From Winogradskyella alexanderae (GTDB taxonomy: Bacteria > Bacteroidota > Bacteroidia > Flavobacteriales > Flavobacteriaceae), in assembly GCF_020166335.1 (NCBI RefSeq), contig NZ_JAIUJR010000003.1, positions 186,001 through 250,000 on the forward strand: a DNA stretch of 64,000 nucleotides. The letters run 5' to 3'. The notes below the pieces were generated by a model. That model did no database searches. It was not told where the DNA came from and saw only the letters and a program-made list of their open reading frames with translations. The position numbers were made by a program, and so were the translations under genes. Position 1 is the stretch's first letter. Every line of letters starts with the position of its first letter. Shown one piece after another: positions 6,740-39,889 of the stretch.

Positions 6740-8595
6740 TGGCAGATATTATTCAACTTTTACCAGACCATGTTGCAAATCAAATCGCAGCTGGGGAAGT
6801 GGTACAACGTCCAGCATCCGTAGTAAAAGAACTTCTTGAAAATGCAATAGACGCACACGCAACAGAAATAAAGCTTATCATTAAAGATGCTGGTAAAACA
6901 CTTGTTCAGGTGATTGACAATGGTCAAGGAATGAGTGTTACAGATGCACGACTAAGTTTTGAACGTCATGCAACTTCAAAAATTAAAAATGCTGAAGATT
7001 TATTTCAACTAAATACTAAAGGTTTCAGAGGTGAAGCCCTAGCGAGTATTGCAGCTATTGCTCATGTAGAGCTCAAAACAAAAACAGAAATTGATGAATT
7101 AGGTACAGCTATTGAAATTGAAGGTAGTAAGGTAAAATCGCAAGAGGTTTCCGTAACTCCAAAAGGAACATCGGTTGCTGTAAAAAATCTATTTTTTAAT
7201 ATTCCAGCTCGAAGAAATTTCTTAAAATCGGATACAGTAGAATTACGTCATATTACAGATGAATTTCACCGAGTCGCACTGGCACATCCTGATTTAAGTT
7301 TTGTTTTTTATCATAATGGCGGTGAACTTTTTAACTTACCCGTTGAAAATTATAGACAGCGCATAGTCCATGTTTTTGGAGCCAAAACCAATGAAAAATT
7401 GGTTCCAGTCAATGAATCTACAGAAGTATTAAAAATAAGTGGTTTTGTGGGTAAACCTGAATTTTCCAAGAAGACTCGGTCCGAACAATTTTTCTTTGTA
7501 AATAATAGATTTATAAAAAGCCCTTATTTAAATCATGCTGTGAGTGCTGCTTACGATGGGTTGTTAAAAGAAGGCTATCATCCAAGTTATTTTCTTAACC
7601 TTTCGGTAGATCCAAAGACAATTGACATAAACATTCACCCAACAAAAACTGAAATTAAGTTCGATGACGAGCATACTTTATATGCCATACTTAGATCTGC
7701 GATAAAACATAGTTTAGGTCAGTTTAATATAGCACCAGTTTTAGATTTTGAACATCAAGAACAGTTTAACACACCGTACAGCTATAAAGATAAAATGGCA
7801 AAAACACCTTCAATAGGCGTAGATAGAGCGTACAATCCTTTTAAAGATCAGTCTAATCACAAAACATCTGTAAAACAAAATATATCTTATACTAAAAAGC
7901 ACAATGAATCTTGGGAAAGTTTGTATGTTGGTCTAGATTCAGGTGGGATTTCATCTGAAAAGCCGTTTAGAGAACTCTCTTTTGAAAGTGATACTAAAAC
8001 GCCATCGATCTTTGATAATGAGGCAAGAATAGATGCGCAAAAACCAACATTTCAGCTTCATAACAAATACATTATAAGCACAATCAAATCCGGTATGCTA
8101 GTAATTGATCAAAATAGAGCGCATCAACGAATTTTATATGAAACTTTTCTAAAGCATATTACAGTTAAAGAAGCAACTAGCCAACAATTACTTTTCCCAA
8201 TTGTATTGGATTTTACGCCAAGTGAATTAGAAATCATCAACCAATTGAAAGAAGATCTTGAGCACACAGGCTTTGTGTTTAAAGCAATAGAAGAAAATAG
8301 CGCAACTATTTCTGGTGTACCTATTGGAGTTCCTGAAAGTGAAGTATCAATAATTTTGGAACAACTTATTAGCGATATTGAAAATGAAGTACCAGATACC
8401 AATTTTAGTGCTGTAGATTTGCTTGCAAAGTCCTTGGCGAAAAGTCTTGCCATAAAAAATGGTCAGAGTTTAAATAGTTCCGAACAAGAACATGTTGTCA
8501 ATAGTTTGTTTGCTTGTAAGGAACCAAATTTATCACCAACCAATAAACTAACATTCATAACTTGGAGTGTTGAAGAAATTGAAAAAAAATTCTAG
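6739..8595 (+). CDS. mutL: DNA mismatch repair protein MutL
   Basis: MutL is the GHKL-family ATPase that links MutS mismatch recognition to strand removal. The 618-residue protein has the N-terminal ATPase motifs NQIAAGEVVQRP, ELLENAIDA, DNGQGM and GFRGEALASI within the first ~105 residues. The C-terminal dimerisation domain carries IDQNRAHQR (about residue 454) where nuclease-competent MutL proteins have DQHA-x2-E-x4-E, and the protein stops after an ITWSVEEIEKKF tail with no CPHGRP motif. It probably acts as a non-endonuclease MutL. It overlaps the preceding stop codon by one base. Confidence 0.95.
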   Translation: MADIIQLLPDHVANQIAAGEVVQRPASVVKELLENAIDAHATEIKLIIKDAGKTLVQVIDNGQGMSVTDARLSFERHATSKIKNAEDLFQLNTKGFRGEALASIAAIAHVELKTKTEIDELGTAIEIEGSKVKSQEVSVTPKGTSVAVKNLFFNIPARRNFLKSDTVELRHITDEFHRVALAHPDLSFVFYHNGGELFNLPVENYRQRIVHVFGAKTNEKLVPVNESTEVLKISGFVGKPEFSKKTRSEQFFFVNNRFIKSPYLNHAVSAAYDGLLKEGYHPSYFLNLSVDPKTIDINIHPTKTEIKFDDEHTLYAILRSAIKHSLGQFNIAPVLDFEHQEQFNTPYSYKDKMAKTPSIGVDRAYNPFKDQSNHKTSVKQNISYTKKHNESWESLYVGLDSGGISSEKPFRELSFESDTKTPSIFDNEARIDAQKPTFQLHNKYIISTIKSGMLVIDQNRAHQRILYETFLKHITVKEATSQQLLFPIVLDFTPSELEIINQLKEDLEHTGFVFKAIEENSATISGVPIGVPESEVSIILEQLISDIENEVPDTNFSAVDLLAKSLAKSLAIKNGQSLNSSEQEHVVNSLFACKEPNLSPTNKLTFITWSVEEIEKKF

Positions 8596-8604
8596 AAAAT
8601 TGTT

Positions 8605-9366
8605 ATGAGACCATCAATCACAGAAGGTGTAAAACACTTGTTGATTATTAATATTATTATGTATGCTGGTATGATGCTACTAGGCAATAATGGCGAACTT
8701 TTTATGAGGTGGTTTGCACTCTATTTCCCTAAAAATGAACTATTTCAGCCTTGGCAAGTAATAACGCACATGTTTATGCATAGTAATGCAACTTTTGCCC
8801 ATATTCTCTTTAATATGTTTGCACTATGGATGTTTGGAACTGCTGTTGAACAGATTTTTGGTATGCGCAAGTTTATAATATTTTATTTATTGTCTGGTTT
8901 GGGTGCTGCCACTATACAAATTGCTTTTTTATATTTTCAATTTAATAGCGGAATGTCCACTTTAATAGATGCTGGCTTTGCACAATCAGAGGTCTTATCC
9001 ACCCTTTCAAATGCTGAATATAATACAAGGTGGGTAACTGTTTTAGGTAAAGATTTGAATAGTTTTGTTGGATCCTATATAGCTCCCATGGTTGGTGCCT
9101 CAGGAGCCATAATGGGTGTTCTTGTTGCTTTTGGTATGCTATTTCCTGAGTCTAAGCTCATGCTTATTTTCTTGCCAATTCCCATTAAAGCAAAGTATTT
9201 TATTCCTGCTATTATAGGGCTGGATTTATTCTCTGCCTTAACTGGAAGCTCAATATTTAGTCCGAGTAATACAGCTTATATGGCACATGTTGGCGGGGCG
9301 TTAACAGGATTCTTGCTGATGTATTTTTGGAAAAAAAATGAAACTGATAAATACCGTTGGAATTAA
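8605..9366 (+). CDS. rhomboid family intramembrane serine protease
   Basis: The 253-residue membrane protein has the rhomboid signatures: W-x-x-x-T-x-x-F-M-H (QVITHMFMH), H-I-L-F-N-M, the catalytic-serine motif GASGAIMG at ~residue 167, and the catalytic His in AHVGGALTG near the C-terminus. About six transmembrane helices are visible. A long loop rich in polar residues separates helices 3 and 4. It lies 9 bp after mutL and overlaps the next rhomboid region, forming a tandem pair. The substrate is unknown. Confidence 0.9.
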   Translation: MRPSITEGVKHLLIINIIMYAGMMLLGNNGELFMRWFALYFPKNELFQPWQVITHMFMHSNATFAHILFNMFALWMFGTAVEQIFGMRKFIIFYLLSGLGAATIQIAFLYFQFNSGMSTLIDAGFAQSEVLSTLSNAEYNTRWVTVLGKDLNSFVGSYIAPMVGASGAIMGVLVAFGMLFPESKLMLIFLPIPIKAKYFIPAIIGLDLFSALTGSSIFSPSNTAYMAHVGGALTGFLLMYFWKKNETDKYRWN

Positions 9367-9368
9367 AT

Positions 9369-10241
9369 ATGAGTTCTTTTCAAGATTTAAAGTTTAAATA
9401 TAGGAGATTAGATATTTTCGGAAAGATTATTGTCATAAATGCAATCATTTTTATTCTGAGCTTTGTTTTATCAGCCTTGTTAAAATGGAATATAGCCAAA
9501 TACTTTGTCCTACCCTCAGATTTTATGGATGTATTAATGCAACCATGGTCATTAATTACTTACGGTTTTTTCCATAGTGGTTTTTGGCATATCGTATTCA
9601 ATATGTTATTGCTATTTTACTTAGCAAGAGTAGCTACAAATATTTTTAGACCCAAAATGGTTCTTAATGTTTATTTCATGGGAATACTATTTGGTGGCCT
9701 ATCATACCTCATTGTTGCCAATGTAATTCCAACTGACTTTTTTAGGGCACGAGGAGTTTTGTTAGGTTCATCGGCCGGAGTATCAGCCTTATTAATGTTT
9801 GTTGCAGTGTATATGCCAGATACGCAAATAAGGTTATTTAACGCATTTAATGTAAAATGGAAGCATATTGCTGTTGTCTTTGTTACCTATGATATCTTTA
9901 GACTTTTATTAGGTCTCAATCAAGGTGGTTATATTGCTCATCTTGGTGGTTACCTGTTAGGTTATTTGTATGCTTCGAACCTTTTGAAAGGTAAAGACAT
10001 AGGTGCTGGCTTTGAGCGCCTAATGGATACTTTTGTGGGTTGGTTTAAACCAAAGTCTAAACTTAAAACTGTTCATCGTAGAAAGGGGAAAAGCGGTTAT
10101 ACAGGCAAAACAAAAAAAGAATTTGAAACGTTTAATAAACAGAAAAAAATAGACATGATCCTCGATAAGATTAGTAAGAGTGGTTATGATAGTCTTACAA
10201 CTGAGGAAAAAGAGTTTTTGTTTAAAGCAGGACAGGATTGA
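9369..10241 (+). CDS. rhomboid family intramembrane serine protease with C-terminal cytoplasmic tail
   Basis: This second rhomboid has the catalytic segment LGSSAGVSAL and the His motif AHLGGYLLGYL, with F-F-H-S-G-F-W-H-I-V-F-N-M in the early helices. Unlike the first it carries a ~75-residue soluble tail with a charged helix ending ...YDSLTTEEKEFLF, matching the short domain (DUF6576-type) often attached to Bacteroidota rhomboids. I start it at the ATG at 9369; a TTG four codons upstream would overlap the previous gene. It is followed after 5 bp by the phosphatase-family gene. Confidence 0.88.
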   Translation: MSSFQDLKFKYRRLDIFGKIIVINAIIFILSFVLSALLKWNIAKYFVLPSDFMDVLMQPWSLITYGFFHSGFWHIVFNMLLLFYLARVATNIFRPKMVLNVYFMGILFGGLSYLIVANVIPTDFFRARGVLLGSSAGVSALLMFVAVYMPDTQIRLFNAFNVKWKHIAVVFVTYDIFRLLLGLNQGGYIAHLGGYLLGYLYASNLLKGKDIGAGFERLMDTFVGWFKPKSKLKTVHRRKGKSGYTGKTKKEFETFNKQKKIDMILDKISKSGYDSLTTEEKEFLFKAGQD

Positions 10242-25122: not shown

Positions 25123-25947
25123 TTAAGGGTTTAAATTAGATTTCAGCCAATCATACCATAAATTCATTCCTTCGCCTGTTGTAGCAGATATCTCGAAGAA
25201 AATAAGATTTGGATTTACTTGCAAAGCGTACTCTTTAATTCTTTCAACATTTATATTTAAATAGGGTAAGAGGTCTATTTTGTTAATCAGACAAATATCC
25301 GAAGTGTGAAACATATCAGGATATTTAATTGGCTTGTCTTCGCCTTCAGTAGGACTTATAATAACTACCCTTTTAGATTCACCTAGATTAAACATAGATG
25401 GACAAACCAGATTGCCAACATTTTCTATCATTAAAATAGAATTATCCTTCATATTTAATTTTTGGATAGCTTCGTATACCATATCACTTTCTAAATGGCA
25501 TCCTTTCCCTGTATTTATTTGAACAACAGGAATGTCTAGCGCATCAATTCTATTGGCATCATTCATTGTTTTTTGATCACCTTCGATAACATAAAACGGC
25601 AATTCAGATTTTAAATCTAAAAGTGTCCTTTCAAGAATTGAGGTTTTTCCAGAACCAGGTGAACTTACCAAATTGAGAGCAAAAATATTCTTGGCATCGA
25701 GGTAGCCTCTGTTTCTTGAAGCCATAATTTCATTATGGTGAAGAATATCTTGCTCCACCTCAATAACTGTTCTTTTATGATCATGATCATGGTGGTGATG
25801 TCCATGACTATGCACATGCCCATCGTGATGGTGATCATGACTATGAGAATGCTCATCGTGATGACGATGCTCTAAAGATTTTAACTCTTTTGGATTCTGA
25901 ATAGCAATGCCGTTTTCATTTGTACCACAGCCGCAAGTTCCACACAT
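25123..25947 (-). CDS. hypB: hydrogenase nickel incorporation GTPase HypB
   Basis: HypB is a GTPase that delivers nickel with HypA. The 274-residue protein has an N-terminal CGTCGCG metal motif, a histidine-rich stretch at about residues 27-58 with ~20 His, a P-loop SSPGSGKTS, and the G-domain nickel/zinc site GCHLES. NKIDLLPY is the G4 motif. The combined Cys motif and His stretch suggest both nickel insertion and nickel storage. It lies 2 bp after hoxW. Confidence 0.95.
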   Translation of the reverse strand: MCGTCGCGTNENGIAIQNPKELKSLEHRHHDEHSHSHDHHHDGHVHSHGHHHHDHDHKRTVIEVEQDILHHNEIMASRNRGYLDAKNIFALNLVSSPGSGKTSILERTLLDLKSELPFYVIEGDQKTMNDANRIDALDIPVVQINTGKGCHLESDMVYEAIQKLNMKDNSILMIENVGNLVCPSMFNLGESKRVVIISPTEGEDKPIKYPDMFHTSDICLINKIDLLPYLNINVERIKEYALQVNPNLIFFEISATTGEGMNLWYDWLKSNLNP

Positions 25948-25949
25948 AT

Positions 25950-26423
25950 CTAGTAATTTTTGTTTAAGATAAAATTTTTAGACAAAATTTCGTCCTTAAA
26001 GTATTCATAAGCTTTTACTAAGTTACCTTCTCCTATATTACTCAAACCTATTTTTAAATCCCAATTTTCGCCTTGAATGGCCAAAATTTGAGCATTAGGT
26101 TCATGGTTATATAACTTTTTGGTAATATACAAAATTGTCTCTGGTGCAAGTGCATGTGTACTAAAACTGTAATTGTCTTCTGGTACACATGGGTACAATT
26201 TAAAACCTCCTTCAATTTTGGTTTTGCATGCATCCACAAATATGACATTTTCATATTTAGAGATAAGTTCTGCATCTTCTATTTGCAATTGATATCTATA
26301 CTCAAGATCAAATGGTGGGCTCTCAGTTTCAACAAGCGCTAAAAATGACCAACCTAATCCATCATCTTGCCGACCGTTGTTTCCAATCCCAAAAATAATT
26401 GTATTATGATCTAACTTTTTCAT
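25950..26423 (-). CDS. hoxW: [NiFe]-hydrogenase maturation endopeptidase (HoxW-type)
   Basis: This protease trims the C-terminal peptide of the large subunit after nickel is bound. The 157-residue protein has the family opening IFGIGNNGRQDDGLGW (canonical GxGNxxxxDDGxG, nickel-sensing acidic residue) and VDACK, with a later S-T-H-A-L-A-P-E segment supplying a His. Its start overlaps the hoxH stop by 20 bp, and HoxH does carry a removable 25-residue C-terminal tail, which confirms the pairing. Confidence 0.85.
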   Translation of the reverse strand: MKKLDHNTIIFGIGNNGRQDDGLGWSFLALVETESPPFDLEYRYQLQIEDAELISKYENVIFVDACKTKIEGGFKLYPCVPEDNYSFSTHALAPETILYITKKLYNHEPNAQILAIQGENWDLKIGLSNIGEGNLVKAYEYFKDEILSKNFILNKNY

Positions 26424-27858
26424 CTAATAAATTTCCTTTAAAATCTTCTAATTGAACAATTAATGGCATTTGACCTAAAGCATGCGTAGCACAACTCAAA
26501 CAAGGATCATATGCCCTAATAGCTATTTCTATTTGATTTAGCATTGGTTCTGTAATCTCTGGTTTCTCATTCAGCACGTCTTTTGCTACGGCTCTAACTC
26601 CTCTGTTCATCGCCTCATTATTGTGGGTTGTTGAAACAATTAAGTTACATTTTGTAATCAATCCTTTATCGTCTGTGTGATACTCGTGGATTAATGTACC
26701 CCGAGGTGCTTCGATAATACCAATGCCCTTATTTCTAGTCGTGCCTTTTCGTACCAAATCATTACCCATAATATCATCATCAAGGAGTAACTCCTTCATT
26801 AATTCTGCACAATGCAACATTTCAATTAATCTTGCCCAATGCGTATGCATGGTCATATTATTTGGAAAGTCTTTGGTATATGCTTTAAATATTTTTCGTT
26901 CTGCTTCGGCCAATGGTGTACTGATATGAGTACATGTATTGATTCGAGCTAGCGGTCCAACACGATTCCAACCATTTTCTCTTCCGTACTCCTTCATATA
27001 AGGGAATTTTAAATACGACCAAGGCTCCACAGCTTCTTTAAAATGGTAACTATATTCAATATCTGCAATGTTCATTAATTCTTTACCTCTTGCATCTATT
27101 GAGCGAAGACGGCCATCATATAACTCTAGAGCGCCTGTTTCTTTGTGGACTAAGCTTAAATGGTTTGAAGGATATCGTGCAAAACTATCTATCCATTTAG
27201 CATTTTCAGCGTGATACGATTTCATGAAGTCTACTATTTCTTTACTCCACTCAATCATTGTATCAATGTTTGGAATTTGCTTACCATCAAGGAAATAATC
27301 CCTTTCATCCGGCATAAATGTTTTATGTACACCTCCTGGGACAGCCAAAATGCCATGAATCTTCTTACCAGCCAGTGCCTTAATCATTTCTTGACCAAAT
27401 TTTCGCATTAAGATTCCTTTTTTGGCCAATTCTTTATTCTCAGTCGCTACAGCAACAACATTTCTTTTTTCGGCAGGCGCATCAACTCCAAATAGTAAAT
27501 CCGGAGATGCTAGATAGAAGAAGTGTAATGCATGCGATTGGAATACCTGACCATAATGTAGCAATCTTCTTAATTTTGTTGCAATAGGTGATAGGCTATC
27601 TGGATCAATACCTACTAATTGGTCTATGGCTTTTGCAGCTGCTAAATGGTGGCTAACGGGGCAAATACCACACAAGCGTTGCACAAGAACTGGTGCTTCC
27701 CAATAAGGGTGTCCTTGTATAAATTTCTCGAATCCTCTAAATTCTACTATATGTAAAAAGGCATCATCGACTTTGCCATTTTCATCTAATTTAATTGTAA
27801 CCTTACCATGTCCCTCTACACGGGTTACGGGTTCTATAACTATTTTTCTACTGTTCAT
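26404..27858 (-). CDS. hoxH: NAD-linked [NiFe]-hydrogenase large subunit HoxH
   Basis: HoxH holds the Ni-Fe active site that splits or makes H2. The 484-residue protein has the L1 motif RLCGICPVSHHLAA (C63, C66) and the L2 motif DPCLSCATH (C453, C456), giving all four active-site Cys. After H459 a 25-residue tail (ALGQMPLIV...) remains for HoxW to remove. EPVTRVEGHGK near the N-terminus is also canonical. The DPCLSCATHALGQ ending and the Hox-type partners place it in the bidirectional NAD-linked (group 3d) type. It is the only large subunit in the window although two sets of partner subunits are present. Confidence 0.95.
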   Translation of the reverse strand: MNSRKIVIEPVTRVEGHGKVTIKLDENGKVDDAFLHIVEFRGFEKFIQGHPYWEAPVLVQRLCGICPVSHHLAAAKAIDQLVGIDPDSLSPIATKLRRLLHYGQVFQSHALHFFYLASPDLLFGVDAPAEKRNVVAVATENKELAKKGILMRKFGQEMIKALAGKKIHGILAVPGGVHKTFMPDERDYFLDGKQIPNIDTMIEWSKEIVDFMKSYHAENAKWIDSFARYPSNHLSLVHKETGALELYDGRLRSIDARGKELMNIADIEYSYHFKEAVEPWSYLKFPYMKEYGRENGWNRVGPLARINTCTHISTPLAEAERKIFKAYTKDFPNNMTMHTHWARLIEMLHCAELMKELLLDDDIMGNDLVRKGTTRNKGIGIIEAPRGTLIHEYHTDDKGLITKCNLIVSTTHNNEAMNRGVRAVAKDVLNEKPEITEPMLNQIEIAIRAYDPCLSCATHALGQMPLIVQLEDFKGNLLDEKVRS

Positions 27859-27872
27859 GTCAATTTGTTTTT

Positions 27873-29138
27873 CTAGTCATATTTAAATTCTGGGTAGGTA
27901 ATAGAATAATCTTCTTCGAAAAGAATATTCTTAACAACATTCCATATATGGTTGGCATTTGGAGGACAACCAGGTATATGGTAATCAATTTTTACAACAT
28001 CATGATTACAATATACTTTATCTAATATTTTGGGTATATCCTCATGATTTGGTATAACTGTTTCATTTTCTTCGCTAGTTAGAGAGTCTATATAAGCTTC
28101 TTTTAGACAATCTTCTAAAGGTAAAGTATTTCTAATTGCTGGAACACCTCCCCAAATTGCACATTCTCCAACTGAAATCAATATATCACAGTTCTTCCTA
28201 AATTTTCTTAGTACTTCGATATTATCAGTATTACAACAACCTCCTTCAATTAAGCCTATATCACAGCGTTCATTAAACTTCTTATAATCAGTTAATGGCG
28301 ACTTATCAAATTCTACAATATCCACTAGGTCTAGTATTCCTAAATCGATATCAAGCATGGACATATGGCAACCAAAGCAACCTGCAAGTGACGCCGTTGC
28401 TACGCGTTTTTTCTTTTTATTTTTATTCACATGTTTTTTGAGATCTGTTAATGGAATATTGGTATTTGCCTTGGCGTAGTCAAACTGTCTATCGCCAAAT
28501 GGTTTCCCAAAAGTTTTTCCTTTCACTAATATGGAACCTGTTGGACAAATGTGCATTGCATGCTCGGCTTGTTGCTCAGAGAGTTTGGCTTCTTGTTCGT
28601 AATCTACAGATACCATTGTTCTGTTTCCTCTTTGTGTAAGGTGGAATACCTTATGGCCATCGTTGGTTTTAATCTCTTCTATACAGCGCTTACATTTAAT
28701 GCATCGATTTTGATTAACAACAATACGCTCTGGTCTTGCATCTACAACTCTATCTACAAATAAGTGAGGAAAACGGGCATACCTTATTCCTGTCTCGTAA
28801 CCAAGGTTTTGCATCTCGCAGTCACCACTTTTTTCACAAGAAGGGCAGAAGTGGTTTCCTTCTACAAACATCATTTCCAAAATAGCCTTACGCAAGTCAA
28901 GTAGTTCTGCAGAGTTTACCTCAATGTCCATGCCTTCATCGACGTTTAAAGTGCATCCTGCAATTGGTCTACCATTATTTTTAACCGTACAAATTCTACA
29001 ACTTCCAAGAGGGTTTAGGTGTTTGAAGTAGCAAAGTGTTGGAATAAAGATGCCATTGGCTTTAGCTGCTTCTATTAGGTTTTGTCCTTTCTCTGCGGTA
29101 CAAACCCTGCCATCTATTTTAAACTTTACTGGTTTCAT
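27873..29138 (-). CDS. HoxU-HoxY fusion, copy 1 (electron transfer plus hydrogenase small subunit)
   Basis: Residues ~1-225 are HoxU-like: a [2Fe-2S] site (C36, C47, C50, C62), a NuoG-type His/Cys cluster (H96, C98, C101, C107) and a further [4Fe-4S] set (C146, C149, C152, C198). A Lys-rich linker (~225-245) leads into a complete HoxY small subunit with the proximal-cluster Cys residues in LAGCFGCHM (C254, C257), GECAI (C326) and PGCPPN (C391). In known group 3d enzymes these are two separate proteins. No stop codon or frameshift separates the parts and the second copy has the same fusion. It lies between hoxEF1 (4 bp) and hoxH (14 bp). Confidence 0.93.
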   Translation of the reverse strand: MKPVKFKIDGRVCTAEKGQNLIEAAKANGIFIPTLCYFKHLNPLGSCRICTVKNNGRPIAGCTLNVDEGMDIEVNSAELLDLRKAILEMMFVEGNHFCPSCEKSGDCEMQNLGYETGIRYARFPHLFVDRVVDARPERIVVNQNRCIKCKRCIEEIKTNDGHKVFHLTQRGNRTMVSVDYEQEAKLSEQQAEHAMHICPTGSILVKGKTFGKPFGDRQFDYAKANTNIPLTDLKKHVNKNKKKKRVATASLAGCFGCHMSMLDIDLGILDLVDIVEFDKSPLTDYKKFNERCDIGLIEGGCCNTDNIEVLRKFRKNCDILISVGECAIWGGVPAIRNTLPLEDCLKEAYIDSLTSEENETVIPNHEDIPKILDKVYCNHDVVKIDYHIPGCPPNANHIWNVVKNILFEEDYSITYPEFKYD

Positions 29139-29142
29139 ATAA

Positions 29143-30882
29143 TTACTTGTCTAGCTCTGGTTGTGTATCTTTTATAAAACTGTCAAATTCCTGAACAGCG
29201 TCTTGCATGTCAAATTCAACATTAAGAAATTCATTTGTTGGTGGAATTTTGAGATTGAAATAATCTTTGAATTTTTCCACTGCGTAGATTAAACTATTTG
29301 GAGATGATTTTCCTAATCCGCAACGACTGGATAGTTTAATAATATTTCCCCATTGTTTTATCTCTTTTATATCTTCTTGGCTAGCTAAACCGCGTTGCAT
29401 TTTCTTTACTTTTTCATTCAAAATATAATTACCAGCTCGGCAAGGCGTGCAAACACCACAAGACTCCTCCTTAAAAAATTCCATGAAGTTTCTTAGGATA
29501 TTAAGTAAATCTCTAGTTCGGTTGAAAACCATAAAGGAGCCACCGCACATAATATCTTCTTTACAGATTCTTCTATTGAATTCGGTATTATTTATACATT
29601 CTCCGGATGGGCCACTAACTTGAATAAAATATGGAGATGTAGCCTGGCTCATTTCAATACCTAACATGTCAATAATTGGTGTGCCATATTCTATTTCATA
29701 AATACCTGGTTTTGCCACATCGCCAGATATGCTAATTAATTTAGTACCTGGAGATTCTTCCGTACCAAGACTTAAAAAATGGTCTTCTCCTAATTCAATT
29801 ATTCGTGATGCATAAGCTAATGTCTCTACATTATTTACTACGGTTGGTTTGTGTCTAAAACCATGTTTGGTTGCAGACCAAGTTCTTACAGGAGGTTCGC
29901 CTCTACGGCCTTCCAAAGATTCTATTAATGCAGAAGCTGCGCCACAGACATAAGATCCTGCGCCAAGTTGAATGCGTATATCAAAATCAAAATCCTTTAC
30001 ACCTAAGATGTCTTTTCCTAGTAGTTTGGTCTTTCTAAATTCTTCAAGAAGCCCTTCTAATCTCTTTTTAAAATATTGGTATTCCGCTCTTAGATAAATG
30101 ATACCTTCTTTGGCTCCTGTTGCATAACCTGCTAAAACCATTCCCTCAATTACTAATCCTGGTAAATATTGTAGCAATGCACGATCTTTAAAAGTTCCAG
30201 GTTCGCCCTCGTCTGCATTACAAATAATATATTTTGTATCTGCTTCATTGTTTTTGCAAGAATTCCATTTGTACCCTACTGGGAAAAATGCTCCTCCAAG
30301 CCCTAATAATTTTGCTTTTGAAATTTTATCTACAATTTCATCAGGAGAATACTTTATGCCTTCCCGAATGCTTTTACCCATTTCATAGGATCTGAAAATA
30401 ATAGCTTTATCGCCTTCCGGATGGTATTGTATTTTGCTTTTCGTTTTACTGGCAATATCCTTTACGTTTTCATCATTTTTTAGACTATCTATTATTCCTT
30501 TTACTTTTTTAGGCGTAAGATCTGTAAAGGGTTGAAAATTTATTAAAGCTGCAGGTTCTTGATCGCTCATACCGATACACGAGGTATCAAAAAGTGAAAA
30601 TTCATTATCGCCGTATTCATTAAAAGTGCTCCCTGTTTCTTTTTCAAAGGCAGCTTTCACAGCCTCATGTCCCTTTATGTCCGAGATAATACTATTGTTG
30701 AGGTAAACGATAAATTTACCTGTAGGTTTTTGATGAAAAAAATGATAAAATGTCGTAACACTCTCAACCTCTACAATAGAGACCTTAAGTTTTTTTGAGA
30801 TTCTAGAAATAGCCTTCTCAGAAATATATCCAAATTTTAGCTGATATTCCCAAAGTTCATTTAAAAGATGTGTTCTGTCCAT
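29143..30882 (-). CDS. HoxE-HoxF fusion, copy 1, with degenerate NADH pocket
   Basis: Residues ~1-120 resemble HoxE/NuoE and ~155-560 HoxF/NuoF. The FMN acidic motif CNADEGEPGTF (221-231) and the [4Fe-4S] ligands (C475, C478, C481, C521) are intact. The FMN/NADH motif is altered: GLGGAFFPVG (194-203) replaces GRGGAFFPTG, CGAASAL (313-319) replaces CGEETAL, and the later K and F of the pocket are R and S. A 24-residue deletion relative to copy 2 precedes GGSFMVFN. The HoxE part keeps only one of four [2Fe-2S] Cys (C102). It shares an operon with hoxH, so it is presumably made and assembled but may not react with NAD. Confidence 0.9.
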   Translation of the reverse strand: MDRTHLLNELWEYQLKFGYISEKAISRISKKLKVSIVEVESVTTFYHFFHQKPTGKFIVYLNNSIISDIKGHEAVKAAFEKETGSTFNEYGDNEFSLFDTSCIGMSDQEPAALINFQPFTDLTPKKVKGIIDSLKNDENVKDIASKTKSKIQYHPEGDKAIIFRSYEMGKSIREGIKYSPDEIVDKISKAKLLGLGGAFFPVGYKWNSCKNNEADTKYIICNADEGEPGTFKDRALLQYLPGLVIEGMVLAGYATGAKEGIIYLRAEYQYFKKRLEGLLEEFRKTKLLGKDILGVKDFDFDIRIQLGAGSYVCGAASALIESLEGRRGEPPVRTWSATKHGFRHKPTVVNNVETLAYASRIIELGEDHFLSLGTEESPGTKLISISGDVAKPGIYEIEYGTPIIDMLGIEMSQATSPYFIQVSGPSGECINNTEFNRRICKEDIMCGGSFMVFNRTRDLLNILRNFMEFFKEESCGVCTPCRAGNYILNEKVKKMQRGLASQEDIKEIKQWGNIIKLSSRCGLGKSSPNSLIYAVEKFKDYFNLKIPPTNEFLNVEFDMQDAVQEFDSFIKDTQPELDK

Positions 30883-30971
30883 AATTAATGCGTTTAAGGC
30901 CTTGCTATTTAATTAAAGAACGTTTTGCAAATCTCATTGGAGTAGATTTACTAAATAAAATAAATGATAAT

Positions 30972-31020
30972 CTTTTAAAAAAGATATGATTTCTGTCATG
31001 TATTTTATCAATATGATAAA
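30972..31020. repeat. additional inverted repeats between hoxUY2 and hoxEF1
   Basis: Two more palindromes flank the ATGA-N6-TCAT site in the 242-bp gap: ATCTTTT-AA-AAAAGAT ending near 30985 and TTTATCA-ATA-TGATAAA at 31004-31020. Neither is followed by a T-run typical of a strong terminator, so they may be further protein-binding sites. The rest of the gap (30883-31124) holds no gene. Confidence 0.45.
30986..30999. promoter_or_regulatory. ATGA-N6-TCAT operator-like site upstream of hoxEF1
   Basis: ATGATTTCTGTCAT has Crp/Fnr-family half-site spacing (TGA-N6-TCA) and is centred about 110 bp upstream of the hoxEF1 ATG. The flanking GATAT...GTAT is also nearly symmetric. It is one of four such sites in the intergenic regions of the hydrogenase island. 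Confidence 0.6.
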
Positions 31021-31124
31021 AATCTCATTTAAAAATTACATAGTCTTAAATATATTATCTTTTGGACGGTCATGTTTCTCAATATTTCTATAGTCTATTC
31101 TTATTCTTCGGTAATTATATGAAG

Positions 31125-32393
31125 CTAGTCATATTTAAACTCTTCATGAGTAATGGAATATTCTTCTCCCAGTAATATATTCTTTACAACTTTCCATATA
31201 TGATTTGCATTTGGTGGGCAACCAGGAATAAAATAATCAACCTTAACAATTTCGTTGCACGGATAAACCTGATCTAACATTTTAGGGATATCCTCGTGAT
31301 TAGGGATGATATTGGCACCAAGTTCTGTTGTTATTCCATTTATGTATGCTTCTTCTAGACACTCCTTTAGTGAAAAAAAATTACGCATGGCTGGTATACC
31401 TCCCATTATCGCACATTCACCGAAAACAACTAGGATGTCGCATTTTTTTCTAAATTCTTTTAGAACTTCTATATTTTCTGAATTAGCACAACCGCCTTCT
31501 ACAAGACCGATGTCGCATTGTTTACTAAACTTCTTAATATCGGTCAATGGCGATTTATTAAATTCAACAATTTCTAAAACATCTAGGAGTTCTGTATTGA
31601 TATCTAACAAGGACATGTGGCACCCAAAACAACCTGCTAAAGAAGTAGTAGCCACAACAAATTTTTGATCTTTTGATTTTTGTTTTAATTTATCGTTTAA
31701 TTGTATTTGCTTTGAACTGCCGGACTTGTCGTATTTACGTTTGCCAAAGGGTTTTTCATAGGCGACACCTTTAACCAATATTGCTCCTACAGGACAAATG
31801 GACATGGCATAAAGTGCCTCTTCATCAGATAATTTTGCTTCTTCTTCATAATCAATTTGAACTCTTGTACCAACACCTCTTTTAACGAAGGAGAAAACAT
31901 CCTTTCCATCTTTTGTTTTAATTTCTTCGACACAGCGTTTACATAAAATACATCTGTTAGATTCCATAATCATCCTATCAGAAGTAAAGTCTACTGCTTT
32001 TTTGCTATAAACGTGAGGAAAACGAGATACAGTAATCCCCATATCATAACCTAGATTTTGCATATCACAGTTACCGCTCTTTTCGCATGACGGACAGAAA
32101 TGATTGCCTTCGGCATAAAGCATTTCTATAATTGCTTTTCTTGTATTCAGAAGTTCAGGAGTATTTATCTGCACATTCATGCCCTCATAGACCTTAGTAG
32201 TACAGCCCGCGGTTGTTTTTCCATCTACTTCAACAGTACAAATGCGGCAGGTGCCTAGTGGCGGATCCACTTCCCTGAAATGGCATAAGGTAGGAATATA
32301 TAATCCATTCGCTTTGGCAACGTTAACAAGGTTTTTTCCTTTTTGCGCCTTGTACCTTTTGCCATCAATTGTTATGTTAACACTATTAGTCAT
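31125..32393 (-). CDS. HoxU-HoxY fusion, copy 2
   Basis: The 422-residue paralogue of copy 1 has the same layout: [2Fe-2S] Cys C37, C49, C52, C64; His/Cys cluster H98, C100, C103, C109; [4Fe-4S] C148, C151, C154, C200; a linker; then HoxY with C255, C258, C327 and C392. The first spacing is C-x11-C because of an extra Pro (DPPLGTC). The C-termini of the two copies are nearly the same (EEFKYD versus PEFKYD). It overlaps hoxEF2 by 8 bp. All cluster ligands seem intact, so this copy should be functional. Confidence 0.93.
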   Translation of the reverse strand: MTNSVNITIDGKRYKAQKGKNLVNVAKANGLYIPTLCHFREVDPPLGTCRICTVEVDGKTTAGCTTKVYEGMNVQINTPELLNTRKAIIEMLYAEGNHFCPSCEKSGNCDMQNLGYDMGITVSRFPHVYSKKAVDFTSDRMIMESNRCILCKRCVEEIKTKDGKDVFSFVKRGVGTRVQIDYEEEAKLSDEEALYAMSICPVGAILVKGVAYEKPFGKRKYDKSGSSKQIQLNDKLKQKSKDQKFVVATTSLAGCFGCHMSLLDINTELLDVLEIVEFNKSPLTDIKKFSKQCDIGLVEGGCANSENIEVLKEFRKKCDILVVFGECAIMGGIPAMRNFFSLKECLEEAYINGITTELGANIIPNHEDIPKMLDQVYPCNEIVKVDYFIPGCPPNANHIWKVVKNILLGEEYSITHEEFKYD

Positions 32394-34212
32394 ATGTACT
32401 TTCTATTTCTTGAATTATGTTATCATAGTTTTGAGTAGCTCTATCAATATTGAATGCGTCATTAAAATCACTTTCGTCTTTTGTTAGTTTTTCAAATTCT
32501 TCTGGGAATTTGAGCATGGCGGTCAATAAGCAATTTGTAGAGGTTTTTCCAAGTCCACAGCGACTAGATTGTTTTATGATATGGCTCCATTCTTGAATTT
32601 CTTCCATATCTGATTTGCTACCATGGCCTAGTTTAATTTTATCAATTTTACGAGATAACAAGAAATTACCAGTTCTACATGGAACACAAATACCACAAGA
32701 TTCGGCAACAAAGAAGTCAGTAATATTCTTCAAAACGGAAATCAAACTTCTTGATTGATTGAAAACCATAAACGAACCACCACTTCTTAGACCGACACCA
32801 CTCATCTTGTGCGCATATTCTATGGGATCTTTGAATGTAAATTGAATCTGGTCAGCTAGTAGGTTTTCACCAGAAATTTCTCGTTCAAAATCGACTGACG
32901 ATAAGCACTCTCCCGCAAATCCATTAAAAAGAATCATATAAGGATCATTAGCACCAATAAGTACTAGGAAATCTTTCAATTTCATTCCCCATTCAATTTC
33001 ATAAACTCCAGGTTTTGTGCAGTCACCTGACACACTTAAAAGTTTTGTCCCAGGGGTGGATTTTGTACCTATGGCTAAGTAGTTTTTAAGTCCCATTTCC
33101 AATAGTCGTGGCACAGCACACAACGTCTCTACGTTATTTACCACAGTTGGTTTGCCTAAATAACCTTTTTCTACAGGAAAATATTCTTTGGTCGTTGGTT
33201 CACCCCTTTTACCTTCCATGGATGCGATAAGAGCAGTTTCTTCACCGCAAACATAGGCTCCTGCTCCTATAAAAATTTGAACATTGAAATCAAAATTTTC
33301 TATACCTAGAATTACCTTTCCAAGTAATTTGGCCTGATTGAAATTTTCTATGGCTTTTTCAATACCTTCTTTTAGGTATTTATATTCAGCCCTTAGATAA
33401 ATAAAACCTTCTGTAGCACCGACAGCATAACCTGCAATTGCCATGCCTTCAATCAATAATTCAGGATATGAATTTAAGAGTACACGATCTTTAAAGGTTC
33501 CTGGCTCGCCTTCATCGGCATTACAAATAATATATTTTTGATCTGAGACGTTGTTTCGACAATATTTCCATTTAGTACCAGTTGGAAAAAAAGCACCACC
33601 TCGCCCTGATAGTTTGGAATCTTCTACCATTTTTATAACATCTTCAGGACTTAGTTTTTTTAATTTTTTAAGTCCATCTCCTATTTCAAAAGGTTTGAAA
33701 AAAATGGTTTTATTTTCGTCTTCAGGTTTGTATTGGATATTATCCTTTGGGAAATTGCATAATTCTTGCAATGAATGGCCAGCCCTAATTTTTGCAATTA
33801 GAGTTCTGGCTTTTTCTGCCGTTAAATTTGTGAATGGATAATAGTTTATTAATGCAGAGGTTTCTTGGTCACTAAGCCCTATACAAGACGTTTGGAATAA
33901 ACCGAACATTTTATCCTTGGTGGTATTTCCCATCTTTATTCCAAGTTCATCCTCAAAGGCTTTCTTGACCTCGTGGTAGTTATAAAGCTTCGAAATTGTT
34001 GAACAATTCAAGTAAATAGTATACTTGCCTGCATCTTTAAAATGAAAAAAATGATAAAATGAGATAATCCCTTCAAGCTCAGTTTTAGAGATGTTGAATT
34101 CATTTGCGATTTTGGCGATATCATCTTTGCTTATGTAACGCCGTTTTTTTTGAATATCCCAAAGAACATTTACTAAATTGAAACGCTGGGGAATGTGTTT
34201 GTCTGGTATCAT
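32386..34212 (-). CDS. HoxE-HoxF fusion, copy 2, canonical NADH/FMN diaphorase subunit
   Basis: This is the NAD-reactive subunit: HoxE-like residues ~1-130 and HoxF-like ~165-590 of 608. FMN/NADH motifs are canonical: GRGGAFFPTG (203-212), CNADEGEPGTF (230-240), GAGAYVCGEETALIAS (317-331) and K342/F345 in the pocket. The [4Fe-4S] ligands are C506, C509, C512 and C552. In the HoxE part two of the four usual [2Fe-2S] Cys are kept (C70 and C110); the C-x3-C partner is S114, so this cluster is doubtful. HoxE-HoxF fusion also occurs in Cupriavidus (Ralstonia) HoxF. It starts the short hoxEF2-hoxUY2 operon. Confidence 0.93.
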   Translation of the reverse strand: MIPDKHIPQRFNLVNVLWDIQKKRRYISKDDIAKIANEFNISKTELEGIISFYHFFHFKDAGKYTIYLNCSTISKLYNYHEVKKAFEDELGIKMGNTTKDKMFGLFQTSCIGLSDQETSALINYYPFTNLTAEKARTLIAKIRAGHSLQELCNFPKDNIQYKPEDENKTIFFKPFEIGDGLKKLKKLSPEDVIKMVEDSKLSGRGGAFFPTGTKWKYCRNNVSDQKYIICNADEGEPGTFKDRVLLNSYPELLIEGMAIAGYAVGATEGFIYLRAEYKYLKEGIEKAIENFNQAKLLGKVILGIENFDFNVQIFIGAGAYVCGEETALIASMEGKRGEPTTKEYFPVEKGYLGKPTVVNNVETLCAVPRLLEMGLKNYLAIGTKSTPGTKLLSVSGDCTKPGVYEIEWGMKLKDFLVLIGANDPYMILFNGFAGECLSSVDFEREISGENLLADQIQFTFKDPIEYAHKMSGVGLRSGGSFMVFNQSRSLISVLKNITDFFVAESCGICVPCRTGNFLLSRKIDKIKLGHGSKSDMEEIQEWSHIIKQSSRCGLGKTSTNCLLTAMLKFPEEFEKLTKDESDFNDAFNIDRATQNYDNIIQEIESTYD

Positions 34213-34261: not shown

Positions 34262-34285
34262 AATAAATGACCTACATCATTTATT
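34262..34285. promoter_or_regulatory. ATGA-N6-TCAT operator-like site upstream of hoxEF2
   Basis: The core ATGACCTACATCAT (34267-34280) extends to 9-bp arms AATAAATGA/TCATTTATT around CCTACA. Its centre is 61 bp upstream of the hoxEF2 ATG. It is the most symmetric of the sites in the island. Confidence 0.65.
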
Positions 34286-34338: not shown

Positions 34339-34680
34339 TTAAGACACCTCTAGTGACTTCACTAGTAGTTCTTTTCCTTTGATAATTGTCTTTGAAAAAC
34401 TCCCACATTTAGGACAATTATCAATAATGTCGTCTATCGGAAAAACGGTATGGCAATCATTACATTTTGCCTCACCGTTTATCTTGTTTATTTTTTTCTC
34501 GGCATGTTCTAATTTAGTATCCTTTACCGCAGATGGCCATACGAAATCAAGAGCTTCAAATTCAATTCCTGCTAATGTGCCAATTTCGAGCTCAATAAGA
34601 TCTACTTTAGATGCATTAGCCTTTGTTGCCTCATTTTCAGCGATACGAACAATGCTCATTGCAATTGACAATTCATGCAT
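34339..34680 (-). CDS. hypA: hydrogenase nickel-delivery protein HypA
   Basis: HypA brings nickel to the large subunit with HypB. I start at the ATG at 34680 because the family begins MHELS, where the N-terminus and H2 bind nickel; an upstream ATG adds eight unrelated residues. The zinc site is CNDC...CPKC (two CxxC pairs) in the C-terminal half. The length (113 residues) is typical. It is divergent from hypF and separated from hoxEF2 by 126 bp that include an operator-like site. Confidence 0.93.
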   Translation of the reverse strand: MHELSIAMSIVRIAENEATKANASKVDLIELEIGTLAGIEFEALDFVWPSAVKDTKLEHAEKKINKINGEAKCNDCHTVFPIDDIIDNCPKCGSFSKTIIKGKELLVKSLEVS

Positions 34681-34731
34681 GTCTATTTGCGTTTTATGCT
34701 TCAATTTTAGTTCTTTTTTACAACAAAGCGT

Positions 34732-34745
34732 ATGACAAAAATCAT
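34732..34745. promoter_or_regulatory. ATGA-N6-TCAT operator-like site between hypA and hypF
   Basis: ATGACAAAAATCAT is centred 63 bp upstream of the hypF ATG and 58 bp upstream of the hypA ATG, so it could serve both divergent genes. The core spacing matches the other sites in the island. Confidence 0.6.
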
Positions 34746-34801
34746 ATGATGCCAGCTTTTGCTAATGTTTCTTTACATTGCTTATTATACCTAAAAATTT
34801 A

Positions 34802-38162: not shown

Positions 38163-39188
38163 ATGGAAAAGAAACGATTTCGTTTTGATAAGATAAACTT
38201 AGGGCATGGTAGTGGTGGTATTATGACTAGGGAACTGTTGGATGAATTAATTTTTAAAACGTTTAACAATCCCTATCTAGATCAAAAGCATGATGGCTCT
38301 ATTGTTAATATTGAAGGTAAAATTGCAATCTCAACAGATAGCTTTGTTGTATCTCCAATATTTTTTAAAGGGGGAAATATTGGCGAATTGGCCGTAAATG
38401 GAACTGTGAACGATGTAGCCATGTGTGGTGCAATACCAAAGTATTTGTCATTAGCATTTATTGTAGAAGAAGGGCTAAAAGCAGATGCTTTTTCCGAAAT
38501 TGTTGAAACCATTAAAGCAACAGCAGATAGATGTGGTGTAGTGGTGATAACTGGTGATACAAAGGTTGTTGAAAGGGGCAAAGGCGATAAAATCTTTATA
38601 AATACTACAGGTTTTGGTGCAGTACATCCCGAAGCCGAAATTTCTGCTAAGCGAATTACAATCGGAGATAAAATTATCGTTAGTGGGAATATTGCCCAGC
38701 ATGGTATGGCTATTATGTCCCAGCGTGAGGGATTAAAATTTGAATCTGATATTGAAAGCGATACAACTAACTTAAACTTTTTAATAGAAGACCTTCTCAA
38801 TAGTTTTGGAGCTAAAATCAAGCTGTTTAGGGATCCTACGAGAGGAGGATTGGCTAGTACGCTGTCAGAAATAGCCACAGATACGAATATTGGTATTCTC
38901 ATAGAAGAAGATAAAATACCCTTGGAGAGGCAGGTAGCTGCTGCATGTGAAATCTTGGGATTGGATCCAATGTATGTGGCTAATGAGGGTGTTTTTGTGG
39001 CAATTGTTGATAGTGAAATAGCCTCAAACGTGGTTGCAATGATGAAACAGGATTCAAAAGGATTAAATGCTGTTTGTATTGGTGAAATAACCAATGATCA
39101 TAAGGGTAAAGTAGTAATGCAAAGTGCCATTGGAGGTAAACGCATAGTTACACCTTTAATAGGAGAGCATTTACCCAGGATATGTTAA
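38163..39188 (+). CDS. hypE: hydrogenase maturation protein HypE
   Basis: HypE dehydrates a C-terminal thiocarboxamide to thiocyanate, providing cyanide for the active-site iron. The 341-residue PurM-like protein starts with the LGHGSGG motif, has DSFVVSP (nucleotide-binding), GDTKVVERG and RDPTRGGLA, and ends in PRIC, whose terminal Cys is the modified residue. It is 2 bp after hypD and overlaps the convergent nickel-transporter gene by 4 bp. Confidence 0.95.
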   Translation: MEKKRFRFDKINLGHGSGGIMTRELLDELIFKTFNNPYLDQKHDGSIVNIEGKIAISTDSFVVSPIFFKGGNIGELAVNGTVNDVAMCGAIPKYLSLAFIVEEGLKADAFSEIVETIKATADRCGVVVITGDTKVVERGKGDKIFINTTGFGAVHPEAEISAKRITIGDKIIVSGNIAQHGMAIMSQREGLKFESDIESDTTNLNFLIEDLLNSFGAKIKLFRDPTRGGLASTLSEIATDTNIGILIEEDKIPLERQVAAACEILGLDPMYVANEGVFVAIVDSEIASNVVAMMKQDSKGLNAVCIGEITNDHKGKVVMQSAIGGKRIVTPLIGEHLPRIC

Positions 39189-39889
39189 TTCATGAACACC
39201 CAATAAGTGCCAATAATAATTGCACACAGGCCAACGGCTAATCGAGCACCTTTGAAGAAATTAGGATTATGCTCATTTTTAGATAGGGTAGCAACTTTTC
39301 CAATTACAAATGCAAATGCCGTCATAGCTAAGATAATCCCGATACATGACCCTACAACATAAAGAATAGAGTCGAGTTGATTATCAAAGCCTAAAACAGG
39401 TATGAAAAGAATAAAATGTGCAACACCAGCGAAACCATGGAGTAAACCGATTGAGAAGGACGCAAAATAACTTTGTTTCATATCTTTGGTATGCCTGTGA
39501 TCGTGATTTTTCTCGCTTTTATGTATGTGCTTATGGCTGTGTATAATCGGCACATTTTCAGTATGTATGTGTAAGTGTTTGTGATTGGTATTCTTCCAAA
39601 AAATTTTGTAAAGCGCCCAGACACCAATCCCAACAAGTACAAGTCCTACAAGCTGTTCACTGTAATTTGATATTTTTTCAATGGGAATTAGGTTTTTAAA
39701 CAAAAAAAACAACAAGCCTATTGAAACCATTCCAACAATATGGCCTATACTCCAAGAAAGACCTATTTTCCAGGCTTTTTTTTTAGACTCAATTACAAAA
39801 GGGGCTACAGCTGCTAAATGATCAGGGCCCGTAATAACATGTAATGCTGATGCGAGTATTCCCGCAACTAATGAAAATTCAGATATCAT
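39185..39889 (-). CDS. nickel transporter, UreH/NiCoT-like, with His-rich loop
   Basis: The 234-residue protein has about six transmembrane helices. The first contains HVITGPDHLAAV, a UreH-like version of the H-x4-D-H nickel/cobalt motif, and a cytoplasmic loop (~residues 103-135) holds about 14 His residues. A GLLHGFAGVAH segment in the fourth helix has two further His. The position beside the hyp genes and the convergent overlap with hypE support nickel supply for hydrogenase rather than sulfite export. An ATGA-N6-TCAT site lies upstream. Confidence 0.8.
   Translation of the reverse strand: MISEFSLVAGILASALHVITGPDHLAAVAPFVIESKKKAWKIGLSWSIGHIVGMVSIGLLFFLFKNLIPIEKISNYSEQLVGLVLVGIGVWALYKIFWKNTNHKHLHIHTENVPIIHSHKHIHKSEKNHDHRHTKDMKQSYFASFSIGLLHGFAGVAHFILFIPVLGFDNQLDSILYVVGSCIGIILAMTAFAFVIGKVATLSKNEHNPNFFKGARLAVGLCAIIIGTYWVFMN

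Follow-up and report, generated by a model that had tools for sequence, protein, structure and literature searches.

The window considered here is the whole 64,000-nucleotide stretch of the Winogradskyella alexanderae genome that was analysed (contig NZ_JAIUJR010000003.1, positions 186,001 to 250,000). It carries a soluble [NiFe]-hydrogenase in the HoxFUYH gene order (HoxF-HoxU-HoxY-HoxH with HoxW), in which HoxU and HoxY are fused. Its features are as follows.

25123..25947, minus strand: hypB (TIGR00073).
25950..26423, minus strand: HoxW-like maturation protease (TIGR00072, above cut-off).
26404..27858, minus strand: HoxH, the [NiFe] large subunit (Pfam and alignment).
27873..29138, minus strand: UY1, a HoxU-HoxY fusion (Pfam and alignment).
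29143..30882, minus strand: EF1, a HoxF with HoxE-like and HoxF domains and an apparently retooled nucleotide pocket (PF01257, PF01512, PF10589 and alignment).
29320..29460, minus strand: EF1 residues 475-521, with the [4Fe-4S] cysteines C475, C478, C481 and C521 (translation and alignment).
29848..29892, minus strand: EF1 residues 331-345, PVRTWSATKHGFRHK, a changed basic loop that replaces the adenine-stacking F/Y-P-V loop (alignment).
29932..29940, minus strand: EF1 residues 315-317, Ala-Ala-Ser, replacing Glu184-Glu185-Thr186 (alignment).
30184..30219, minus strand: EF1 residues 222-233, NADEGEPGTFKD, the acidic FMN loop, intact (alignment).
30259..30303, minus strand: EF1 residues 194-208, GLGGAFFPVGYKWNS (alignment; Aquifex numbering).
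30883..31124, minus strand: a 242-base gap, the place of which is occupied in the relative G115 by a second HoxH, HoxH_A (comparison with G115).
30986..30999, no strand assigned: palindrome ATGAYNNNNRTCAT, 117 bases upstream of EF1 (motif count).
31125..32393, minus strand: UY2, a HoxU-HoxY fusion without a HoxH of its own (Pfam and alignment).
32386..34212, minus strand: EF2, a HoxF with the Glu185/Phe205 clamp intact (Pfam and alignment).
34339..34704, minus strand: hypA (TIGR00100, 90.6 bits against 88.1).

The genes hypF, hypD and hypE lie in the opposite orientation from position 34778 on. A membrane protein with a histidine-rich loop and a weak DsbD_2 match (39185-39889) adjoins the hyp genes and, by position only, is possibly a nickel transporter. 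EF1 is a single open frame of 579 amino acids at the head of the series EF1-UY1-HoxH-HoxW-hypB; a first-pass annotation of this DNA had described the frame as intact and placed it in an operon with hoxH, correctly on both counts. HoxH, in which both CxxC motifs are present, is the only [NiFe] large subunit found by a PF00374 search of the genome. By alignment, UY1 retains 18 and UY2 19 of the 21 cysteines of Cupriavidus necator HoxU plus HoxY, and those that are absent are presumably not ligands. HoxU and HoxY form a single polypeptide in the window and in the fetched Flavobacteriaceae operons; they are separate in C. necator and in distant Bacteroidota such as those at loci L048-L057. The joining of HoxE-like and HoxF domains is the usual HoxF layout, and C. 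necator HoxF can be aligned with EF1 from end to end.

The closest known systems are the NAD+-reducing soluble [NiFe]-hydrogenases HoxFUYH of C. necator (pHG1; group 3d type) and Hydrogenophilus thermoluteolus (5XF9/5XFA). The window differs from both in the fusion of HoxU with HoxY, in the second HoxF-HoxUY set within the cluster, and in an EF1 that lacks the equivalent of Glu341 and the adenine-stacking aromatic residue at 205. The FMN domain and [4Fe-4S] ligands of EF1 are also homologous to those of NiFe-HydABCSL and HydABC (7T2R, 7P5H). However, HydB has GDPGAFMDR or GDPGAFMNR in the acidic FMN loop, whereas EF1 has GEPGTFKDR; with the AFM motif missing, EF1 was rejected as an electron-bifurcating HydB, and no further Fe-S domain was found in it by Pfam. 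Complex I NuoF (Aquifex, Thermus) has the same FMN and [4Fe-4S] residues, but EF1 lies in a hydrogenase operon. It scores 320.9 bits, below the TIGR01959 cut-off of 558.65. The genome encodes three PF01512 proteins, of which the third is RnfC (564.6 bits against 245.95), located beside RnfB, and EF1 was rejected as a complex I subunit.

The nucleotide pocket was compared in an alignment of 151 rows, numbered by Aquifex NuoF and made up of 116 database proteins (4 of 120 having been excluded for length), EF2, the operon copies of relatives and two PDB sequences. The EF1 set comprises 88 rows: 85 come from the database and 3 from loci, and a single locus row is identical to a protein of the database. 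A second set holds 120 proteins of the EF2 kind, here called copy-2 types. The rows are related, and the counts that follow are not counts of independent events.

Thirteen columns were taken as the FMN site, a part of them from the contacts given in PMC8880783 and PMC11677225. All 13 are invariant across the 88 EF1 rows and 11 are invariant over all 151, with Glu97 to Asp and Tyr180 to Phe occurring in the same three distant rows. Phe71, Lys76 and the acidic Glu95/Glu97 loop are unchanged in EF1, and four of four HoxF [4Fe-4S] cysteines are present. The statement in the first-pass annotation that CNADEGEPGTF and Cys475/478/481/521 are retained is borne out.

The nucleotide side is different. 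According to excerpts of PMC8880783, Lys177, Asn194 and Glu197 of A. mobile HydB bind FMN, Phe180 and Phe307 sandwich the adenine and Glu287 binds the ribose. In NuoF, the available part of PMC11677225 has the adenosyl ribose held by Glu185 and Lys76, and the adenine by Phe71 with Tyr205. When these contacts are transferred to EF1 by alignment, the FMN set of HydB is kept, and the two Phe and the Glu are changed. Position 185, the ribose-binding Glu elsewhere, is Ala in 88 of 88 EF1 rows; position 205, elsewhere the adenine-stacking Phe or Tyr, is Ser in all 88. Around them, 184 is Ala (84 rows) or Ser (4), Thr186 has become Ser, Pro206 Ala and Val207 Thr (88/88 each), and Lys at 208 (87/88) and His at 209 (81/88) follow. 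Copy-2 types (n=120) have Glu184 in 120, Glu185 in 120, Phe205 in 119, Pro206 in 120, Val207 in 120 and Glu208 in 119, and in the first alignment Glu185 was accompanied by Phe or Tyr at 205 in 63 of 63 non-EF1 rows. Both adenosine contacts (Glu341/Aquifex 185 and the aromatic at Aquifex 205) are thus absent from 88 of 88 EF1 rows and present in EF2. Since these contacts to NAD are missing, EF1 is classed as a HoxF homologue and not as an NAD-reducing HoxF. Judged by the alignments, the ADP-ribose clamp (185, 205) is the diagnostic change of EF1.

The replacement loop is fixed as Ser-Ala-Thr-Lys-His. Compared with copy-2 types, whose acidic residues at 184, 185, 203 and 208 are gone, it is more basic by about 4.5 charges. 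Averaged over rows, the two loops together have a net charge of +4.0 in EF1 (88 rows), -0.5 in copy-2 types (24) and +0.7 in sister rows (25). In the glycine-rich segment (residues 194-208), the glycines and Lys76 are kept, Arg66 has become Leu and Thr73 Val, and Tyr appears at 75 (86/88) and Ser in place of Phe at 79 (81/88). Not all of these changes carry the same weight. Val207 to Thr falls outside the EF1-only changes because the sister group has it too, and position 79 counts for less, since Leu stands there in C. necator, and Leu, Ala, Thr or Ser in some of the copy-2-type or more distant operons. Position 204 is Trp in 84 of 88 EF1 rows; this aromatic residue is not an EF1 invention, since copy-2 types already have Tyr or Phe there (119/120). 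Tyr75 is the only new aromatic, and those at 79 and 205 are lost.

Columns were counted as EF1-specific if the residue was fixed in at least 90% of EF1 rows and occurred in at most 10% of 59 comparison rows, and there are 21 of them. Eleven fall within the 23 nucleotide-loop columns (of 374 in total; hypergeometric P about 8e-10, a guide only, because the loop limits were set from the literature after the alignment had been viewed and related sequences are not independent), and none of the 13 FMN-site columns is among them. A concentration of changes on the nucleotide side, as first proposed, is therefore upheld. Within EF1, the entropy is zero at 185, 186, 200, 202, 205, 206 and 207, and reaches 0.96, 1.98, 0.58 and 1.34 bits at 66, 72, 73 and 203, respectively. 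Free variation among orthologues, which the first-pass annotation had set against selection on the pocket, is thus found at these last four positions and not at 184-186, 200, 202 and 205-208, which are fixed or nearly so.

The substitutions on which loss of NAD reactivity had been based are all present (GLGG, FPVG, CGAASAL, and R and S at the pocket K and F positions), but several are poor signs of loss. The Arg of GRGG is, by the entry title of 9fdj, dispensable for NADH binding in Aquifex: the title gives the NuoF R66G variant as bound to NADH. Moreover, two copy-2-type operons have GYGG and GCGG, and the GLGG of GLGGAFFPVGYKWNS recurs in RnfC of the same genome. H. thermoluteolus HoxF carries Arg at the place of the K-to-R change, and FPTG is FSTG in C. 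necator and FPTA in H. thermoluteolus. A supposed 24-residue deletion in EF1 is an insertion in copy 2, because the stretch is also missing from C. necator and H. thermoluteolus HoxF, as it is from two sister-group rows; the insertion has low confidence in the predicted model.

Between the window and W. vincentii (L004), dN/dS is 0.039 for EF1, 0.037 for EF2, 0.020 for UY1, 0.015 for UY2 and 0.013 for HoxH, rough values because dS is 1.4 to 2.5, near saturation. Mean values over pairs with defined dS are 0.09 for EF1 (44 of 55 pairs, synonymous sites near saturation), 0.17 for EF1b, 0.06 for UY1 and 0.05 for HoxH. Judged by these ratios, EF1 is faster-evolving than its UY1 and HoxH partners, yet under purifying selection, and the suggestion that selection maintains it finds support. 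In a quick tree with long outgroup branches, the 16 sampled EF1 rows come together as a single clade with SH-aLRT 100; its sister group (96) has 33 rows, the EF1b proteins of Lutibacter among them.

Relatives of HoxH occur in 3 of 68 genus genomes (E 1e-60), 21 of 397 in a family sample and 33 of 395 in a phylum sample (both E 1e-100); of the 21 from the family sample, the window's type (at least 84%) accounts for only 5. When EF1 was searched for across the order (395 genomes, E 1e-150, scoring no more than three candidates in each), the window's genome and G065 gave close matches and G247 one of 52%. Among 22 genus and family regions, a copy-2-type EF-UY-HoxH operon was found in 17, with Glu184-Glu185 kept in all 17. 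The other five have a window-type HoxH (84-97%), adjoined by EF1 in three; of the remaining two, the copy in L025 is EF1b-like, and L023 is truncated where its contig begins. Several copy-2-type operons (L026-L030, L034-L037, L039) adjoin a divergently oriented gene for a second [NiFe] large subunit of about 577 amino acids with 26-32% identity to HoxH in the part that matches; such a subunit the PF00374 search did not find in the window's genome. At L018 (9908-10897), a 329-residue frame before HoxH joins a HoxE-like start in frame to a HoxY end, without most of HoxF, HoxU or the first HoxY cysteines; it is either a real deletion or an assembly fault of a metagenome-assembled genome (MAG).

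In the relative G115, hypA-EF2-UY2-HoxH_A-EF1 stand on one contig, in a genome that is 82% complete with 6% contamination and whose join to its UY1-HoxH contig is inferred. By comparison with this contig, the window has the appearance of a tandem operon from which the first HoxH is gone, one HoxH being left with an NAD-type and a retooled diaphorase. A HoxH remnant in the 242-base gap was sought and rejected: the best stretch has 16 residues (E 0.026 for the gap alone, 0.14 for the window) and was read as chance. EF2 and UY2 are open and constrained between two Winogradskyella species. In eight Lutibacter loci (L006-L013), EF1b lies directly before EF1, and at L005 EF1 stands alone. The Lutibacter EF1b proteins (about 7950-9720) have a half-changed pocket, with Glu184 replaced by Ala and Glu185 kept.

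EF1 is a conserved HoxF variant in which the clamp has been replaced by a basic loop, and it may exchange electrons of the [NiFe] site with NADP(H) and not NAD(H); we hold this view of its carrier tentatively, at somewhat under an even chance. The first-pass annotation had favoured a dismantled pocket, with NAD reactivity lost and electron conduction retained. A dismantled site should drift, whereas conservation is what is seen in the basic loop with its new Ser, Thr, Lys and His, and the Glu-to-Ala change is half of one published as conferring NADP+ use on C. necator HoxF; the pocket thus appears retooled. In C. necator HoxF (C338-G-D-E341-S342), E341 aligns with Aquifex Glu185 and with Ala316 of EF1. 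The E341A/S342R variant (Preissler et al., as cited in excerpts of PMC10127272 and PMC12809855), altered at this same Glu, has an affinity for NADP+ similar to that for NAD+ at four times lower turnover (PMC10127272, in part) and is described in the accessible part of PMC12809855 as the best engineered NADP+ variant so far. In EF1 the Glu-to-Ala half is natural, and Ser, Thr, Lys and His lie close by along the chain; unlike the variant, EF1 is conserved throughout a clade and has further changes in the neighbouring loop. Against NADP(H), position 186 is Arg in the engineered protein and Ser in EF1, as in wild-type C. necator HoxF. The loss of Glu184, which in Aquifex is reported to bridge to NADH through water, and of the aromatics at 79 and 205, with Tyr75 as the only gain, also counts against it.

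In mechanistic terms, a small neutral residue stands in all 88 rows where the Glu would contact the adenosine ribose, as would be expected of an NADP(H) diaphorase, and the loss of this Glu would open space for the NADP(H) 2'-phosphate. That phosphate could be bound by the basic and hydroxyl residues gained, the candidates from sequence being Ser205, Thr207, Lys208 and His209 in the more positive loop, and Tyr75 and the aromatic at 204 may help to hold the adenine. Electrons would pass from HoxH through the HoxY cluster, the HoxU clusters, the HoxF [4Fe-4S] cluster and FMN to NADP(H), or in reverse. The single HoxH would be common to an NAD-type (EF2-UY2) and an NADP-type (EF1-UY1) diaphorase, because EF2-UY2 lies in the same cluster without a HoxH of its own. 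For comparison, no HoxF/NuoF protein that is specific for NADP(H) and has the EF1 loop is known to us. The predicted model of EF1 has no ligand and low confidence in the pocket loops, with block means of 66-74 near residues 191-200 and 311-340.

Several alternatives must be weighed. EF1 might still be active with NAD(H), with altered affinity or kinetics, tuned for example to reoxidise NADH to H2. The unchanged FMN site, Lys76, Phe71 and Glu95/Glu97 loop, the aromatic at 204 in most rows, the Leu at 79 of C. necator HoxF and the NADH-bound title of the Aquifex R66G entry are all consistent with this. However, the adenosine-holding Glu185 and Phe205 are replaced in 88 of 88 EF1 proteins and kept in 120 and 119 of 120 copy-2 types; we consider continued NAD(H) use unlikely.

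We regard as comparably unlikely a protein that binds no nicotinamide nucleotide, its basic, widened pocket mouth docking ferredoxin or flavodoxin for single-electron exchange with FMN or the [4Fe-4S] cluster. A basic rim would, on sequence grounds, equally fit an acidic protein partner, four acidic residues (184, 185, 203, 208) having been lost and the loop net charge being about +4. Ferredoxin chemistry is likely present in this genome because it encodes an RnfB-RnfC pair, and Synechocystis HoxEFU reacts with ferredoxins (excerpts of PMC7363133). The same excerpts, however, place the Synechocystis site at the HoxE-HoxF junction, beside clusters in both; the HoxE-like domain of EF1 retains one Cys only of that region in the alignment, and this cluster is reported to be missing from HoxF of the non-bifurcating hydrogenase. 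No RnfC was found in G046, the genome of L005. By eye, no ferredoxin gene was seen beside the operon among L006 frames of at least 70 residues, and a cysteine-pattern scan for small ferredoxin-like frames gave 1 match at 20000-45000 of the window and 9 in L004-L014, none convincing by eye. Nor was a gene for an alternative acceptor seen by Lutibacter operons (L006 frames of at least 70 residues in full; the first 40 residues per frame in L012, L014 and L025).

The first-pass view, that EF1 is unreactive with nucleotides and serves as an electron conduit, sink or structural partner, seems no more probable than either of these and is doubtful. Its adenine and ribose contacts are gone, its mean dN/dS exceeds that of UY1 and HoxH, and a HoxF with intact Glu185 adjoins it in 10 of 11 loci inspected (window, L004-L013). 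The replacing loop is, however, mostly fixed and not drifting. At L005 there is no second HoxF, and EF1 is the only PF01512 protein found in the genome. The hydrogenase there would depend on EF1 alone and, on the first-pass view, would lack such an outlet. The title of the L005 record calls it a MAG, and though G046 is 98% complete, the single PF01512 protein could reflect an assembly gap. A decaying duplicate is very improbable, since, although an NAD-type copy lies alongside and some glycine-loop positions vary, EF1 is represented by 88 full-length rows (4 shorter proteins of 120 left out) with FMN and [4Fe-4S] residues kept and a low dN/dS to L004; on the alignment and dN/dS, a pseudogene was rejected.

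To return to the NADP(H) reading, sequence makes NADP(H), the electron carrier of biosynthesis, the most likely partner of EF1 instead of NAD(H). A larger claim, possible but clearly on the doubtful side, is that EF1 stands at the origin of a natural HoxF/NuoF branch dedicated to NADP(H) and that one [NiFe] hydrogenase has two interchangeable diaphorases, for NAD(H) and NADP(H). If true, hydrogen electrons could be directed by the cell into either pool. Flavin modules of the NuoF type, which are generally regarded as NADH sites, would be able to switch carrier with flavin and clusters kept, and a natural clade with the same Glu replaced and a changed loop would offer a ready template for an NADP+-accepting hydrogenase. 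PMC8857189 (in excerpt) describes the Flavobacteriaceae that carry group 3 hydrogenases as facultative fermenters living in sediments, and with this lifestyle the pool tapped by the hydrogenase bears on sediment ecology. If EF1 uses ferredoxin or nothing, the 88-row alignment would instead be a sharp test of the NADH-holding residues in the pocket. Searches of open-licence literature showed nothing on this operon among the matches listed, which does not amount to its absence from print.

The palindrome ATGAYNNNNRTCAT looks like what we take to be a site of a Crp/Fnr-type regulon. It occurs 7 times against 0.57 expected, and the other copies are at 34267-34280, 34732-34745, 23466, 25777, 39988 and 41744. 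Of the seven, one precedes EF1, one precedes EF2 and one sits between hypA and hypF. In the eight Lutibacter loci, a relaxed version of the motif was looked for ahead of EF1b and not seen. The copy upstream of EF1 is also present in L004 and L005, two other Winogradskyella records.
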